NCBI GenBank assembly: GCA_017857235.1
Contig: JAFMDN010000008.1
Location: 1-42,755, forward strand
DNA from: Methanobacteriota archaeon
GTDB lineage: Archaea > Thermoplasmatota > Thermoplasmata > Thermoplasmatales > GCA-001856825
Length of the DNA: 42,755 nucleotides
Direction of reading: 5' to 3'
Shown here: piece after piece, positions 25,406 to 36,479 of the stretch
How the letters are laid out: each line of letters begins with the position of its first letter
Numbering within the stretch: position 1 is the first letter of the stretch
The notes under the pieces: model-generated
Seen by the model: the letters and a program-made list of their open reading frames with translations, nothing else
Databases searched by the model: none
What the model was told of the DNA's origin: nothing
Made by a program: the position numbers and the translations under genes

Positions 25406-27028
25406 ATGAAAGAAATTAGTGAAATAGCTAAAGAGATAGGAATTTTGAATGATGAATTAGAATTTTATGGAAGATACATGGCAAAAGTGAACCCGAAGAT
25501 TCTTGAAAGATTGAAAGACAGGAAAAATGGAAAGTTAATCCTAGTAACTGCAATGAACCCTACTTCTGCCGGAGAGGGAAAGACAACTACCACAATCGCA
25601 CTCTCTCAGGGGCTAAAATACCTTGGAAAAAAGGTAATGATAACACTAAGGGAACCTTCTTTAGGACCGAACTTCGGTGTTAAGGGTGGAGGCACAGGAG
25701 GAGGAAAATGTCAAGTTTTACCATCGGATGAAATAAACCTGAACTTTACAGGTGATTTCCACGCAATTTCAGCTGCCCACAACCTGCTTTCTGCACTCAT
25801 AAACAACCATGTTTTTCATGGAAATGAATTAAATATTGATTTAAAGGAGCTCAGGTGGAAAAGAACAATTGACATGAATGATAGGTCTCTAAGGAATATA
25901 ATAGTTGGGATAGGGAATCAAGGAGGTGCACTGGCTGAAGATTCATTCCTCATCACACCAGCCTCTGAAATTATGGCCATAATGGGCTTTGCAGAGAATT
26001 ATCGACAATTAAAGGAAATGCTTGGAAACATAATAATTGGTTACGATAAGGACGGAAAACAGCTTAGAGCCAAGGATCTTAAAGCTCAGGGAGCCATGGC
26101 GGCACTCTTAAAAAACGTCATAAAACCAAATTTGGTACAGACAACAGAAGGAGTACCAGCATTTGTTCATATTGGTCCCTTTGGGAACATAGCACACGGT
26201 CACAATAGCGTATTAGCCGATAAAATCGCCCTAAAGTTAGCAGATTACGTCGTCACTGAAGCTGGGTTCGGATCTGATCTGGGGGCTCAAAAATTTATAG
26301 ATATAGTACTAAGGAGGGGAGGCTACAATATTGACCTTGCGGTCATAGTTATAACTATAAAAGCAATCAAGCACCACGGAGGAATGAAAAAGGAGGATAA
26401 ATTTGAATACTTGGTTAAGGGTCTTGAAAATGTTTATTATCACATTGAGAACATGAGAAGATATGGAGTGCCTGTGGTTGTATCACTTAATAAATTCAAG
26501 GAAGACAAAGATGAAGAAATTCAATACATAAGTAAAGAATTGAAGGCTAGAGGGATTGAATTTGCTGTAAATGAAGGCTATTTGAAGGGAGGCGAAGGAG
26601 CAGTTGATTTGGCAAACAAAGTACTAAAAGTTCTAAATGAGAATAAAGAAGTTAAGATCAACTTCACCTACGAACCAACCGACAAGGTCAAGGATAAAAT
26701 TGAGAAAATAGCAAAAACAGTATATGGAGCAAGCGGTGTGGAATTCTCAAAGAAAGCATTATCAGTTTTAAAGGAAATAGACGAGAACAACTTGAATGAT
26801 TTTGACGTCTGCATGGCAAAAACTCAATACTCCATTTCCGATGACCAGAATAAACTAGGGTGGCCCAAAAACTTCACTATAAAAGTTCAGGATATTATGT
26901 TATCTGGAGGGGTAAAATTTGCGGTTCCATTAACTGGAGAAATAATGACCATGCCAGGTTTGCCGAAGCATCCAATCTCAGAAGAAGTAGATATAGATGA
27001 CGAGGGAAATATACATGGATTACTCTGA
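25406..27028 (+). CDS. fhs: Formate--tetrahydrofolate ligase
   Basis: 540 residues, near the family's 550-560. The P-loop-like NPTSAGEGKTTTTIALSQGL (about 51-70) and REPSLGPNFGVKGGGTGGGK (about 83-102) are signatures of formyl-THF synthetase; FDVCMAKTQYS near the C terminus is also conserved. It makes 10-formyl-THF from formate, ATP and THF, or releases ATP in reverse. The GAGGTGGG ribosome-binding site overlaps the upstream stop codon. In this operon it links formimino-derived and glycine-derived one-carbon units. Confidence 0.95.
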   Translation: MKEISEIAKEIGILNDELEFYGRYMAKVNPKILERLKDRKNGKLILVTAMNPTSAGEGKTTTTIALSQGLKYLGKKVMITLREPSLGPNFGVKGGGTGGGKCQVLPSDEINLNFTGDFHAISAAHNLLSALINNHVFHGNELNIDLKELRWKRTIDMNDRSLRNIIVGIGNQGGALAEDSFLITPASEIMAIMGFAENYRQLKEMLGNIIIGYDKDGKQLRAKDLKAQGAMAALLKNVIKPNLVQTTEGVPAFVHIGPFGNIAHGHNSVLADKIALKLADYVVTEAGFGSDLGAQKFIDIVLRRGGYNIDLAVIVITIKAIKHHGGMKKEDKFEYLVKGLENVYYHIENMRRYGVPVVVSLNKFKEDKDEEIQYISKELKARGIEFAVNEGYLKGGEGAVDLANKVLKVLNENKEVKINFTYEPTDKVKDKIEKIAKTVYGASGVEFSKKALSVLKEIDENNLNDFDVCMAKTQYSISDDQNKLGWPKNFTIKVQDIMLSGGVKFAVPLTGEIMTMPGLPKHPISEEVDIDDEGNIHGLL

Positions 27029-28247
27029 TATAATTAATTCCAAAAATATCGAAGAGGCATATGGAAATTTAAAAGGTATCATAAAAGATACACCTTTGGA
27101 AAAAAGCAGATCCGTATCAGAAAAGGTAGGCGGAGAAGTATTTCTTAAACTTGAAAATCTCCAAAGGGGCGGCTCCTTTAAAATAAGGGGAGCTTATAAT
27201 TTTCTTTATAATATTAAGAAGGATGTAATAGCTGCAAGTGCAGGAAATCATAGTCAAGGAGTGGCGCTAGCCGCTAGGTTACTAGGTTTACATGCGACCA
27301 TTGTCATGCCGGAATTTGCCCCACCGGTTAAGGTTGAAGCCACAAGGAATTACGGTGCCGATGTAATACTTTTTGGAAAGACTTTTGATGAGGCAACAGA
27401 ATTTGCAAAGGACATGGCAAGGCACCACGGACTCGTATTTGCTCATGCATTTGACAATCCATTTGTCATAGCTGGCCAGGGAACCATAGGGGTTGAAATT
27501 TTAGAGGAGGCAATGGATTCAGATTTTGTTTTGATTCCAGTAGGCGGAGGGGGTCTAATATCTGGAATTTCATTATACCTAAGGGAAAAGGGATACAAGG
27601 GAAAGATTATAGGAGTCGAATCAGAAAAGGCAGCATCTATGAAATTAAGTTTCCAAAATGGGTTTCCAGTCAAACTTGAATCTGTATCAACAATAGCCGA
27701 TGGCATAGCTATAAAATCTCCTTCGGAACTCACATTTAATCTTGCTAGAAAGTATATTGATGATGTTGTAACTGTTTCAGATAACGAAATTTCCGAAGCT
27801 ATGTTCATTCTTCTTGAAAGGGGGAAAATAGTAGCAGAACCGGCAGGAGCCGCATCGGTTGCTGCACTTCTAAGCGGAAAAGTTGATGGCAGGGGTAAAA
27901 AATCTATTGCCCTTATTTCAGGTGGAAACGTAGACTTAACCCTCCTAACACAGATAATCGAATATAATCTGCTAAAAATCGGAAGGGAGTTTACAATTAA
28001 ATTTGTACTGGATAATAGGCCCGGGGAGCTAAAGAAAGCAGTTGAAACCATAGCAAGTTTAAAGCTAAGCATTGAGGAGCTAAATACAGAATTGTTTTCA
28101 TACGAAGTACCTGTTGGAAGGCAAATGGTTACTATGCGGTTGAAGGTATATGGGAATGAAGCACTGTCTAATCTTGTTGAGAAATTCAAAAAGTATGGTT
28201 TCGATATAATTGACATTAAAGGAATTGAAAATATTCCCCAGATGTAA
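27015..28247 (+). CDS. ilvA: Threonine ammonia-lyase (threonine dehydratase, catabolic form)
   Basis: 410 residues from the ATG at 27015, preceded by GAGGG at good spacing; the in-frame ATG at 26997 has no such site. PLP-binding GSFKIRGAYN carries the Schiff-base lysine near residue 52, and GGGGLISG binds phosphate near 177-184. A single ACT-like domain (about 325-402) points to the TdcB/biodegradative-like form that deaminates threonine to 2-oxobutyrate. The start overlaps the fhs end by 14 nt. With TDH/KBL next door, the cluster holds two alternative routes for threonine. Confidence 0.92.
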   Translation: MDYSDIINSKNIEEAYGNLKGIIKDTPLEKSRSVSEKVGGEVFLKLENLQRGGSFKIRGAYNFLYNIKKDVIAASAGNHSQGVALAARLLGLHATIVMPEFAPPVKVEATRNYGADVILFGKTFDEATEFAKDMARHHGLVFAHAFDNPFVIAGQGTIGVEILEEAMDSDFVLIPVGGGGLISGISLYLREKGYKGKIIGVESEKAASMKLSFQNGFPVKLESVSTIADGIAIKSPSELTFNLARKYIDDVVTVSDNEISEAMFILLERGKIVAEPAGAASVAALLSGKVDGRGKKSIALISGGNVDLTLLTQIIEYNLLKIGREFTIKFVLDNRPGELKKAVETIASLKLSIEELNTELFSYEVPVGRQMVTMRLKVYGNEALSNLVEKFKKYGFDIIDIKGIENIPQM

Positions 28248-28248
28248 C

Positions 28249-28272
28249 AAGGGAAATCATTATCATTCCCTT
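28249..28272 (+). terminator. Hairpin after threonine ammonia-lyase gene
   Basis: A perfect 7-bp inverted repeat AAGGGAA/TTCCCTT (28249-28255 and 28266-28272) with a 10-nt loop begins just after the stop codon. Only a short T run follows, so termination of the kbl operon is plausible but not certain. On the opposite strand it would lie at the 3' end of the candidate RNA next to it. Confidence 0.4.
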
Positions 28273-28273
28273 T

Positions 28274-28395
28274 GACCCATCCGGGGATATGGGGTGAATT
28301 CTGGCCTCCTTATCATCGATGGGCGACACACCCTACCTCTGGGAGGGGCCCAATAACCCCTGTAGTTCCCCGTCGTCCAGTGTTATCATATTTTC
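28274..28395 (-). ncRNA. Candidate structured non-coding RNA (GC-rich block)
   Basis: By hand count 63 of the 107 bases at 28274-28380 are G or C, far above the surroundings. Self-complementary pieces include CCCATC/GATGGG (28276-28281 with 28318-28323), CGAC/GTCG (28324-28327 with 28372-28375) and AGGGG/CCCCT (28344-28348 with 28357-28361). On the minus strand a TATA-like AGATATAAATG (28416-28426) would start transcription near 28395, and the hairpin at 28249-28272 could end it, giving an RNA of roughly 120-145 nt. No RNase P, SRP or tRNA signature is present. Strand and identity are inference; a 112-residue plus-strand frame across it shows no protein family. Confidence 0.45.
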
Positions 28396-28439
28396 AAACA
28401 CTATTCCAGAGGGAACATTTATATCTATTAAAATCTCAT

Positions 28440-28826
28440 TTATATCTTTTGGTATCGGCAGGTTATTGTGGTCTTAAGGCCTCCCCTAACGTTGAATATT
28501 CCTCTTACAACAACGAACTTAGGGTTTGCATATTTAACTATGTCTTCCAGAATCTTGTTAATCGCATTTTCCTGGAATATCCCAACGTTTCTATATCTAT
28601 AAAGATATAGTTTGAAGCTCTTCAATTCAATTAGTTTCTTGTCAGGTATATAGTTTATCTCTATCCTGGCGAAGTCAGGCAACCCCGTCTTTGGGCAAAC
28701 AGAAGTAAATTCATCCGTCTCTATCTTTATTATCGTATCCTTTTCTGAATATGCAAAATCCACGGTATCTATTGGCCCCAAATCCAGGTTTCTTATATTG
28801 TCCTGTAAATGTTCGTAGGTACTCAT
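28440..28826 (-). CDS. QueF-family protein (archaeosine/queuine pathway)
   Basis: 128 residues, a short single-domain T-fold protein. The catalytic-cysteine segment VCPKTGLPDFARIEI (about 43-57) holds the nucleophilic cysteine and the aspartate. ELKSFKLYLYRYRN fits the NADPH-binding pattern of preQ0 reductases, yet the following FHE motif reads FQE. In archaea, QueF-like enzymes turn preQ0 in tRNA into archaeosine; bacterial QueF reduces free preQ0 to preQ1. The tRNA-guanine transglycosylase at 39793 acts in the same pathway. The gene is single, convergent with the threonine operon and divergent from 28884. Which reaction it carries out is open. Confidence 0.8.
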   Translation of the reverse strand: MSTYEHLQDNIRNLDLGPIDTVDFAYSEKDTIIKIETDEFTSVCPKTGLPDFARIEINYIPDKKLIELKSFKLYLYRYRNVGIFQENAINKILEDIVKYANPKFVVVRGIFNVRGGLKTTITCRYQKI

Positions 28827-29870: not shown

Positions 29871-30236
29871 ATGGTTGGAACATATGTTAAGTTTGAGACT
29901 CCAAGTGAGTTAAAGGAAAAGGCCTTGCAGTTAGTTGAAGTATCAAAGGAAACTGGAAAAGTGAAGAAGGGAACAAACGAGGTAACTAAGGTTGTGGAAA
30001 GGGGCGAAGCTAAGCTAGTTATAATTGCAGAGGATGTTGAACCACCGGAGATAGTGCTTCACTTACCAATGTTGTGCGATGAAAAGGGAATACCATATCT
30101 TTATGTAGCCAAAAAGGAAGATCTTGGAAAGAGGCTTGATCTAAAGAGTGCTGCTGCAGTAGCTGTTATTGAGCCTGGAAATGGTAAGCAGCTACTTGAA
30201 GAATTGACAAATAAGTTCAAAGAAATCAAGAAGTAA
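29871..30236 (+). CDS. rpl7ae: Ribosomal protein L7Ae
   Basis: 121 residues, the standard archaeal length. [19 protein letters not shown] (about 38-56) is the RNA-binding signature and [15 protein letters not shown] follows the family. It binds kink-turns in 23S rRNA, box C/D and H/ACA guide RNAs and RNase P. It has a GGAGGT ribosome-binding site 6-10 nt upstream and is first gene of the conserved L7Ae-S28e-L24e-NDK-aIF5B operon. Confidence 0.97.
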
Positions 30237-30247
30237 GAGTGATAGAA

Positions 30248-30460
30248 ATGGTAGAAAATGATGCCATTCCTTGTGAAGTTCTGGAAATAATCGGAAGAAC
30301 AGGGATGGCCGGTGAAGCTACTCAGGTCAAGATAAAGGTTCTTGCTGGACCAGATCAGGGTAGGGTTCTAACTAGAAACGTAATGGGCCCAGTGAGAGTC
30401 GGAGATATCTTGATGCTGAGGGAGACAGCTAGAGAAGCAAGAAAGCTGTCAGTTAGGTGA
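30248..30460 (+). CDS. rps28e: Ribosomal protein S28e
   Basis: 70 residues from the ATG at 30248. A GTG three codons upstream is in frame, but the GAGTGAT site just ahead fits the ATG and the family starts here. The OB-fold core [19 protein letters not shown] and the invariant end [14 protein letters not shown] confirm the small-subunit protein. The gap from rpl7Ae is 11 nt. Confidence 0.95.
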
Positions 30461-30465
30461 TTTAA

Positions 30466-30744
30466 ATGGAAATCAGGTACTGTTCATTTTGCGGCAACAA
30501 GATAGAGCCTGGTACAGGAAAGATGTTCGTTAGGAAAGATGGGACAATTCTTTTCTTTGATAAATCCAAATGTGAAAAGAATTACCTAAAACTTGGAAGG
30601 GAACCAAGGAAAGTAAGGTGGACTAAGGAATTTACAGAAGCAAAGAGATCGCTGAAGGCAGAACAACAAAATCAAAATGTCAAAAATTCTTCAGAAAGTA
30701 CAGTAGAAAATTCGAAATCTAAAACTGAGAACCAGAATGTTTGA
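30466..30744 (+). CDS. rpl24e: Ribosomal protein L24e
   Basis: 92 residues. The zinc-binding N terminus begins [16 protein letters not shown], with CxxC at 6-9 and a further cysteine in KSKCEKN. The core ends near 63; about 30 residues of a Gln/Asn/Ser/Lys-rich, probably disordered tail follow, longer than in most archaeal L24e. GGTGAT ribosome-binding site. Gap of 5 nt from rps28e. Confidence 0.94.
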
Positions 30745-33608: not shown

Positions 33609-36479
33609 ATGAGTTGGAATGCTGGGAAGATCTTAGCATTGGTAGCCATTGCCCTGCTCCTGGCAAGTGGCATGTACTATATGGCAGATGCCCAAATCAA
33701 AGGAGCAAGTCAGGTAAGTTTTGCATTTGTAACAATATCAAATAATATACCCATAACTGGGTTGACGGTTTATTTAGAATCACCTTCTGGTAATGTTATT
33801 CAGACAAATATAAGTTCACCATCTGTTGAATTTTCAGTCTATCCGGGAAATTATATAGTATATATTCCCAGCCAGAAGTTGAATGATGAAATTTATAATT
33901 ATGAATCTTTAAATATTGAAGTTAATAAATCTGGAGCTTTTTACAATGGACAACCTTTAACTTATGTATCATTGCAAAAGTTCCCAGTAAATTCAAATAT
34001 AATATTGAAGGTAAGCAACGGGGTACCGCAGTCCGTTTATTCTTACCTTAGTAATGGGCTTGAATTAGCATCAATCCAGAACGGAAGTACATTTACCATT
34101 AGTACAACAAACATTACCCAGACAGTGTTTATCCAGTACAATACTGGATCAGTGGCTTATTATACTGTGTCAATAACTCCAGTGGTTGGTAATAACTACC
34201 TGAATGTAAGCTTAGCCAACCTTAACGGTATCTCTGGATATGTGACCAGCACAAATGGTTCCGTGATCAAAAATCTCCAAGTATCAATATATCAAAACGG
34301 AATGCTGCTGGGAAGCCAGAATTTCTACGGTGGATACTTCCTTTTGACAATGCAACCCGGTTCTTACTACTTAGTTGTTTCAAGTCCAGGATACCTTCCA
34401 ACCGGTTTTAATGTTAATGTTTTGAGCAATAGTGGTATCACGTTCCAGACAGTTAAGCTTGTCCCAAGCATGGTACCACAAACTGAAGTTATTACCTTTA
34501 CACAAAATTTCAAGTCTCTAAAGGTTCAGGAATCCATTACAATAACAAATTCAACAATTCTTCTAACATTACCCTATTCTAATTCAGGTTCACTTTATGA
34601 TCAAATGAAGCTTTTAAATATGATAAGCAATGGAAAGAATACAATTTGGGAGATAATGAACTATTCAATTCCAACGGAGACCGTGAATAATATACTCTTC
34701 AATTCCTATTCTTACAATATGGTAAATTACTCCTCACAGTTGAGCCAGACGAACTATGGCGGCCAGTATGGATTTACATTCACTTATACTGCATATTATA
34801 CCCAGACAGTCAATGTTTCAAATACTAACACACTCCAAATTTATGTTAATAAAAATGGAGTATCTCAGAACTTTATTACTTACAACTATATTGTAAACAT
34901 TCCATCTGCGTACGAGAGGTCAAATATAATAAACCAGTCAATCGCTAATGTTACAGGTTATACAGGAACTATAAGTATAAGCAATTCAAACTTCAATGGT
35001 TGGCTTACAATAAAGTTAAGCCAGAGGGTTAAACCATCCATAACTCTATCTTCATTAATGTTCAGCTGGAGCGGTTATTTCGAGTCACCCATTGTAAATG
35101 ATTCAAGCTCCAATTTTACTTTCGTTGTACCGGCAAACAGGAATTTCTCACTAAATGCATCCAATGTTGCTTTTGATAACGTGCTAATGTTGGATAATTA
35201 CATGCAGATGAAGTTCAATTGGAACATATCTGGAGCATCCCTGACTGGTTACAATATAACAGATAATCTTCCTGCCGGAATATATCATTCCTCATTAATG
35301 GTAACGGATGTAGGTGGCAACGTAAACGAAACCAATTTCACAATAATTTCAGATTCAAATTCTCCAACCCTGTCACTTACGGTTGTGCAGGAAGGCAGGA
35401 CACTATTCAATAAGACATCGTCTTCATCTGGAACATATGTATTATGGGTAAATCAAACAGCTCCTGTTTATTTCAATGCTGTAAGGAGTAAGGACGTTCT
35501 GCCAAATGGCCAAAACAGCAGCCTACCATTGTTATTGAACTGGAATTTCACAGGTACAAAGAAAACAGGTTTGAACGTTACATATACCTTTGTTAAACCA
35601 ACATTCGGGTCTAAGTTCGTTTATGTCAATATAACACTAGAAAATGCTGCAGGTAATACAATAACCTGGAACCTCCAGGTACATGTCAATGATACCACAC
35701 CCCCAATTGCTGCATTCACGATTTACAATTCAACCGGAAAAGCCGTAACATCTGCAAAGGAATATGAAATGCTAACATTCAACGCATCAAAGTCATTTGC
35801 ACCTAATGGAGGATACATAGTATCATACAACTGGACAATATATTATGCGAACGGGACAAAGGCTCCAATTAATGTTGTATATAACATGACAAATGTAACA
35901 TCCAATATGTCAGTTGTAAAGGTATCATTCATACAATACGGAACATTCAAAGTCTCACTTGAAGTGACAGACCAATCCAATCACCATTCCTTTGATAATG
36001 TTAGCTTGTTTGTTTCAGCAGTAAGGCCTGAATTAGAAATATTGAATGTCACATATCCCAAATCCTTTGAGCAGGGATCTCCTGCAACAATGAAACTGGA
36101 ATTGAAGAATGTAGGATTAGAGAATGCCACGCAGTATTACATTACAGTTACAATCAACGGTAAGGTAATTGAAAATAAATCTTTCACAAATGTGATTGAG
36201 CCCAACAAAGCAATAAACCTAACATTAGTAATTTACCCACCAAGCTCTGGCCAATATACCATGGTAATAAAGGTATATGCTGTCGGGCAACCAAGCTTCT
36301 TCAATACGAATACCGAGGTTACAAAAGCTATATCTGTATCACAGCCAGCATACCTCTTACCACTGATAATCGCAGTGGTTGTAATAGCAATAGGCATATT
36401 GGCATATGCTTACTACAGTCTTTCAAGGAGAAAGAAAGAAGGTGGCAAGGAAGAGAAGCAAATAAGGAAACTTAAATAA
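33609..36479 (+). CDS. Large cell-surface protein with PKD-like domains and C-terminal anchor
   Basis: 956 residues. A signal helix (about 7-28, ILALVAIALLLASG) leads to an outer region of beta-sandwich modules. Two look like carboxypeptidase-regulatory/transthyretin folds (about 35-100 and 205-280), then a long Asn/Ser/Thr-rich stretch, PKD-like modules (about 490-590, 600-690 and 700-800; FNASKSFAPNGG is typical) and a CARDB-like module (about 810-890). A transmembrane helix (about 915-938) and a basic tail RRKKEGGKEEKQ anchor it. Sequons for N-glycosylation are abundant. It likely forms part of the surface coat or an adhesin of a wall-less cell. Single gene with its own leader. Confidence 0.75.
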   Translation: MSWNAGKILALVAIALLLASGMYYMADAQIKGASQVSFAFVTISNNIPITGLTVYLESPSGNVIQTNISSPSVEFSVYPGNYIVYIPSQKLNDEIYNYESLNIEVNKSGAFYNGQPLTYVSLQKFPVNSNIILKVSNGVPQSVYSYLSNGLELASIQNGSTFTISTTNITQTVFIQYNTGSVAYYTVSITPVVGNNYLNVSLANLNGISGYVTSTNGSVIKNLQVSIYQNGMLLGSQNFYGGYFLLTMQPGSYYLVVSSPGYLPTGFNVNVLSNSGITFQTVKLVPSMVPQTEVITFTQNFKSLKVQESITITNSTILLTLPYSNSGSLYDQMKLLNMISNGKNTIWEIMNYSIPTETVNNILFNSYSYNMVNYSSQLSQTNYGGQYGFTFTYTAYYTQTVNVSNTNTLQIYVNKNGVSQNFITYNYIVNIPSAYERSNIINQSIANVTGYTGTISISNSNFNGWLTIKLSQRVKPSITLSSLMFSWSGYFESPIVNDSSSNFTFVVPANRNFSLNASNVAFDNVLMLDNYMQMKFNWNISGASLTGYNITDNLPAGIYHSSLMVTDVGGNVNETNFTIISDSNSPTLSLTVVQEGRTLFNKTSSSSGTYVLWVNQTAPVYFNAVRSKDVLPNGQNSSLPLLLNWNFTGTKKTGLNVTYTFVKPTFGSKFVYVNITLENAAGNTITWNLQVHVNDTTPPIAAFTIYNSTGKAVTSAKEYEMLTFNASKSFAPNGGYIVSYNWTIYYANGTKAPINVVYNMTNVTSNMSVVKVSFIQYGTFKVSLEVTDQSNHHSFDNVSLFVSAVRPELEILNVTYPKSFEQGSPATMKLELKNVGLENATQYYITVTINGKVIENKSFTNVIEPNKAINLTLVIYPPSSGQYTMVIKVYAVGQPSFFNTNTEVTKAISVSQPAYLLPLIIAVVVIAIGILAYAYYSLSRRKKEGGKEEKQIRKLK

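Follow-up and report, generated by a model that had tools for sequence, protein, structure and literature searches.

A HgcG/Pab40-like triple box H/ACA guide RNA with a predicted helix 69 target in a Thermoplasmatales archaeon

The window (the whole stretch of DNA analysed, 42,755 nucleotides of a Thermoplasmatales archaeon contig) contains a GC-rich block flanked by two convergent genes. Pfam identifies these convergent genes as a PALP-family, threonine-dehydratase-like gene on the plus strand (26997-28247; PF00291, 288.7 bits) and queF on the minus strand (28440-28826; PF14489, 102.6 bits), the latter located upstream of the RNA described here and on the same strand. The block had been reported as approximately 59% GC (63 of 107 nucleotides). 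A base count reproduces this figure exactly at 28272-28378 (58.9%), overlapping the GC peak of the window for that length: all 107-nt segments across the window have a mean GC content of 36.1% (sd 6.1), with a maximum of 59.8% starting at 28274. Located 1.5 kb from the RNA is a plus-strand gene for an L7Ae-family protein (29871-30236; PF01248, 96.2 bits), L7Ae being a protein partner of H/ACA RNAs. According to Pfam, it forms a consecutive run of ribosomal protein genes with those for S28e and L24e (29871-30744, plus strand). A Cbf5-type DKCLD domain is also encoded in the genome. An Rfam match to SNORD36 at 33878-33955 (plus strand; 30.6 bits against a cut-off of 30, E 0.49) lies within a 956-residue open frame, and is probably due to chance.

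Folding of the minus strand over 28226-28395 yields a free energy of -65.6 kcal/mol (z -3.5), and none of 200 shuffled sequences was equally stable. A plus-strand RNA was considered and dropped, as the corresponding fold is weaker (z -1.56, with 16 of 200 shuffles equally stable). The proposal that the block encodes a structural RNA is thus borne out for the minus strand, where the stems also show compensatory changes. The block as originally delimited (28250-28395) is real, but constitutes a mere part of a larger predicted RNA spanning 28232-28416; the GC-rich portion makes up over half of this approximately 185-nt gene. Its position between convergent genes and its good folding could also be read as signs of an element acting at the DNA level, such as a two-way terminator. 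We consider this extremely improbable, given that the fold is strand-biased, that the unpaired pockets described below are near-invariant and that the RNA is present in 16 loci from f3, f4 and f5 (f1 to f6 being the family labels of the matched genomes) for which a search found neither queF nor the PALP gene as a neighbour. Both genes flank the RNA in 12 of the 14 f1 loci, and one only in the other two (L056 and L060).

When searched at gathering thresholds, Rfam reports no family at the RNA locus, and ARAGORN detects no tRNA there. The Rfam search that had been suggested in the first-pass annotation does, however, retrieve RF00064 (HgcG, Pab40) when permissive filters are used, with a minus-strand match at 28227-28477 that covers 276 of 276 model positions (51.8 bits, E 1.5e-13). 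The block is therefore not an "unknown" non-coding RNA as had been supposed, but matches a box H/ACA guide family. As the score falls under the RF00064 gathering cut-off of 77 bits, we refer to the RNA as a homologue as opposed to a curated family member. Matches of the block to mir-384 and SNORD116 (E 0.45 and 4.2, respectively) were rejected as chance. Using stricter filters, RF00064 directly matched four relatives (31.7-65 bits) in a set of 61 genomes comprising the source genome and its relatives, while missing the source genome itself, and the cut-off of 77 bits was exceeded in none of the 61.

A DNA similarity search matched 17 of these 61 genomes at E <= 0.01, two of which (G029 and G035, with matches of 25-28 nt) were unused; the loci L014, L015 and L018 are partial and were excluded from the alignments. 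A covariance model built from 17 sequences (R1) has one match each in 78 of the 117 genomes of the order, representing 27 of 33 genera and 33 of 51 good-quality genomes. A second model built from 71 sequences (R2) has matches in 289 of 400 genomes across the class, which represent 92 of 104 genera and include 149 of the 192 genomes of good quality; among the matches listed, two genomes have two each. Some of the genomes without a match (39 of 117 for R1 and 111 of 400 for R2) are incomplete, and weak matches are lost under the stricter filters. The loci read came from 70 of the 78 R1-matched genomes and from Thermococcus. R1 also recovers the HgcG of Thermococcus sp. JdFR-02 (34.4 bits, E 7.9e-7), a locus that scores 194 bits with RF00064 and belongs to the sole genome found in a contig scan for HgcG. 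Searches of the open-licence literature brought up no publication that describes an RNA of the HgcG type in Thermoplasmatales.

The score below the Rfam cut-off might be taken to indicate a new type of structured RNA, unrelated to H/ACA guides and with only local likeness to HgcG. This is very unlikely: the RF00064 match spans the entire model, the R1 match to the Thermococcus HgcG is reciprocal, and the RNA has three ANA boxes, K-loops and the same helix 69 target, with co-change between guide and target (see below). We consider it secure that the RNA is an H/ACA guide and a homologue of HgcG/Pab40. The block very probably forms the middle of a minus-strand gene of approximately 185 nt (28232-28416, both ends being predicted), whose product, a box H/ACA guide RNA with three hairpins, is homologous to HgcG, Pab40, Pf7 and Afu-4.

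The likely promoter of this gene is a minus-strand TATA-like box, GATATAAAT, at 28438-28446. It is located approximately 26 nt before the RNA, which is the usual archaeal TATA-to-start distance. The minus-strand TATA box named in the first-pass annotation is a second copy of GATATAAAT at 28417-28425; it is present as described, but is probably not the promoter, because hairpin 1 begins at 28416 and directly abuts it. In the alignment, this second copy carries changes in the nearest relative (L002) and was not seen in more distant ones. Inspection by eye identified TATA-like elements at a comparable place in several relatives as well as in Thermococcus. Transcription would thus start at hairpin 1, in agreement with the available text of PMC4652768, where transcription of Pab40 is reported to begin with the first nucleotide of its H/ACA motif. 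At the opposite end, the predicted RNA runs into the convergent PALP gene and shares its last ~16 nt. Here, the motif GUUAC (28244-28248) shares letters with the PALP stop codon (28245-28247).

All three minus-strand hairpins consist of a stem, an internal loop, a second stem and an apical loop, as identified by folding and covariation. Hairpin 1 (28361-28416) was recognised from its sequence, an inverted repeat and covariation, with a K-loop at 28386-28396 and an ACA box at 28361-28363. Sequence and covariation define hairpin 2 (28288-28360), which is H/ACA-like and ends in an AUA box (28288-28290). Hairpin 3 (28232-28287; fold z -3.16, in addition to covariation) has a K-loop at 28257-28265 and an AUA box at 28232-28234. 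Pocket and box are 14 nt apart in every hairpin, which places all three ANA boxes at H/ACA spacing, for which PMC4652768, in its available text, gives a rule of 14-16 nt between the ANA box and the pocket-closing pair. Hairpins 1 and 3 contain a K-loop-like UGA...UGA arrangement, whereas the irregular upper stem of hairpin 2 is K-turn-like. Most alignment rows have GUGUC as the apical loop of hairpin 2 (28327-28331), GAGUC and GGGUC being among the variants.

Covariation was analysed using two alignments. In a structure-blind alignment of hairpins 2 and 3 (A1, 17 rows), 21 of 33 pairs show two-sided changes and 94.7% of cells pair, values that are flattered because the structure was taken from the same alignment; none of the measures was reached in 500 shuffles, and sliding the partners as a control gave 5-8 two-sided pairs. 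The second alignment covers all three hairpins (A2, 15 rows, two f4 rows being omitted because they lack a recognisable hairpin 1) and shows two-sided changes for 22 of 42 pairs, a result that none of 500 shuffles reached; slid partners gave 5-11. The weakest helix in A2 is the upper stem of hairpin 1, for which 84.4% of cells pair, and no two-sided changes were seen in the lower stem of the same hairpin. Compensatory changes in a CCCATC/GATGGG stem had been named as possible support; such changes occur in the three H/ACA hairpins, but do not exceed shuffles in that stem. The letters of the latter exist, but connect two different hairpins, and the stem was not kept as a helix: 80.2% of cells pair, yet between 25 and 477 of 500 shuffles reach the five measures.

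Homology and complementarity suggest how such an RNA might function. The K-loop or K-turn of each hairpin would bind L7Ae, while the 3' ANA box would bind Cbf5 together with Nop10 and Gar1. The internal-loop pocket would then pair on either side of a 23S uridine, allowing Cbf5 to convert it to pseudouridine. All three pockets can pair with rRNA on both sides of a uridine, hairpin 3 by 5+6 bp and hairpins 1 and 2 more weakly.

The target prediction is strongest for hairpin 3, with its 5' guide GGGUCA (28273-28278) and 3' guide GUUAC (28244-28248) located by target scan and alignment rows. When scored against every uridine of the organism's own 16S and 23S rRNA, U1951 of the 23S ranks top with a score of 28, the next site scoring 18.9, and none of 1000 shuffled guides equals the score at U1951. 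In alignments, this uridine corresponds to E. coli U1915 in helix 69 and to position 2020 in a 23S from Thermococcales. There is thus a strong case, as judged from sequence, that hairpin 3 is aimed at U1951. In HgcG/Pab40 the third hairpin is likewise aimed at this position of helix 69 (2016 in P. abyssi), a likeness that hairpin 3 shows at the level of complementarity, and the available text of PMC4652768 assigns Pa40.3 to L2016 of P. abyssi and Af4.3 to L1970 of A. fulgidus.

Guide and target change in concert at this site, with GGGUCA and UGACCC in this order as opposed to GGGUUA and UAACCC in Thermococcales. No 23S match was found in the Thermococcus JdFR-02 genome, and 23S loci from related genomes were therefore used instead; UAACCC follows U-A in 10 of 10 of these, GGGUUA being the sequence of the one Thermococcus guide read. 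One set of helix 69 loci is no proof by itself, since it was retrieved with a sequence that contains UGACCC. The same motif is, however, also found in six loci (L034, L035 and L041-L044) retrieved without mismatch by an unrelated 23S pattern. A single exception combines a GGGUUA guide (L085, genome G016) with a UGACCC 23S (L023), corresponding to a G-U pair.

The pocket of hairpin 2 comprises UGGGC on the 5' side (28348-28352; 64 of 71 rows) and CAG on the 3' side (28301-28303; 70 of 71 rows). Of the seven rows without UGGGC, six are f4 loci that read AGGGC instead, and the seventh is that of Thermococcus. Both halves are complementary to the A-loop of the 23S (CUG-U-N-C-GCCCA) around U2578, the equivalent of E. 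coli U2554. Among the loci read, those of f1, f3 and f6 have U at position N and those of f4 and f5 have A, a variation that indicates U2554 rather than U2555 as the target. In the f4 and f5 23S loci L024, L025 and L031, the A-loop reads CUGUACGCCC in place of CUGUUCGCCC, the difference falling on the position equivalent to E. coli 2555. At the A-loop, 27-32 of 1000 shuffles equal the score of the hairpin 2 core, while none of 1000 shuffles is as good as the longer guide of an f6 locus (L100) when scored against the 23S of the window's genome. In the proposed pairing, three bases of the target stay unpaired, as opposed to two. With the guide of L004, hairpin 2 also scores 31.2 against U1394 of the 16S, a value resting on several G-U pairs. 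We hold the prediction that hairpin 2 targets U2578 with moderate confidence.

For hairpin 1, the 5' guide core GGAA (28404-28407) and the 3' guide GACGAC (28372-28377) were located by target scan and locus counts. The best site is U2535 of the 23S (GUCGUC-U-G-UUCC, 7+4 bp, score 26.3), followed by a 16S site at 24.6, and 11 of 1000 shuffled guides are as good at U2535. This position aligns with E. coli 2511, in the peptidyl-transferase region. Its counterpart in a Thermococcales 23S is position 2607; the numbering of that 23S agrees with the T. kodakarensis sites published as 2589, 2592 and 2607. The published P. abyssi sites 2585, 2588, 2603 and 2685, when counted from the U1915 equivalent, are all U in 7 of the 10 Thermococcales-related loci; in the remaining three, the layout is off by one. 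In PMC6138745, as far as its available text goes, Pab40 guides P. abyssi 2588, while T. kodakarensis 2607 (P. abyssi 2603) is made by Cbf5 and Gar1 without a guide RNA. As the best site of hairpin 1 lies 15 nt beyond that of Pab40, it seems to be aimed at the guide-free site of Thermococcales. For none of the three hairpins do the listed sites include U2520, the equivalent of P. abyssi 2588.

Conservation of the hairpin 1 guide differs between families. GACGAC occurs in 14 of 14 f1 loci, with both guide halves present in 13. Five of five f3 loci contain GGAA and one contains GACGAC, whereas the single f5 locus has GACGAC without GGAA. Only the 3' half fits in f6 (GACGAC in 29 of 34 loci, GGAA in 2 of 34). 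GACGAC is absent from all 16 f4 loci, where no recognisable hairpin 1 precedes hairpin 2 (among L063-L082); the f4 RNA is apparently a two-hairpin form. The f4 23S likewise differs at the hairpin 1 target site, UUCC being replaced by UCCC in both loci read.

It could be argued that the RNA is a HgcG-type H/ACA guide in which hairpin 3 alone guides, hairpins 1 and 2 having other targets or none. The modest shuffle statistics of both hairpins would fit, as would the 32 of 34 f6 loci without GGAA and the higher scores that the window's own hairpin 2 letters reach at sites other than the A-loop. We find this rather doubtful, although it deserves serious weight: GACGAC is kept in f1 and largely in f6, its absence from f4 goes with a different 23S site in the two loci read, and the near-invariant CAG and UGGGC of hairpin 2 are complementary to the A-loop. 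The assignment of hairpin 1 to U2535 can be made with moderate confidence. That it guides pseudouridylation at E. coli 2511, equivalent to T. kodakarensis 2607 and P. abyssi 2603, and that a guided and a guide-free mode have been swapped at one conserved site, is a tentative proposal for which we see the balance as close to even.

A well-studied guide RNA can now be traced through an archaeal class where the Rfam model mostly falls short, and the co-change of guide and target provides natural evidence for the helix 69 site. At another ribosomal position, a test is offered of guided and guide-free modification replacing each other.

Overall, the RNA is a diverged relative of HgcG/Pab40, with one target kept and two probably changed. 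It shares with HgcG/Pab40/Pf7 of Thermococcales (RF00064) three hairpins in the same order, a TATA-like box just upstream, the ANA boxes and a third hairpin aimed at the same helix 69 uridine. It differs in scoring below the Rfam cut-off, and in its first hairpin, assigned to U2588 in P. abyssi Pab40 (PMC6138745, available text) while the best site here is the 2603 equivalent. The pocket of the second hairpin differs as well, UGGGC and CAG both being absent in the Thermococcus row (L079). Afu-4 of Archaeoglobus fulgidus (Af4.1-Af4.3), likened here by published assignments in the available text of PMC4652768, also has three H/ACA motifs, Af4.3 and its L1970 target being related to Pa40.3 and its target. 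In the same source, Af4.2b is assigned to L2601, 631 nt past L1970, and the spacing from the equivalent of U1915 to that of the A-loop U2554 is 627 nt in the own 23S and 630 nt in Thermococcales. Judging by these distances, hairpin 2 may share the target of Af4.2b. Af4.1, in contrast, is assigned to position 1167 of the 16S and not to the 23S (PMC4652768). The Hvo1/Hvo2 motifs of Haloferax volcanii, likened by their description in the available text, differ in comprising two hairpins with a long spacer; Hvo2 is nevertheless alike in being proposed for two helix 69 pseudouridines, 1956 and 1958 in that numbering (PMC2584109, PMC4652768).
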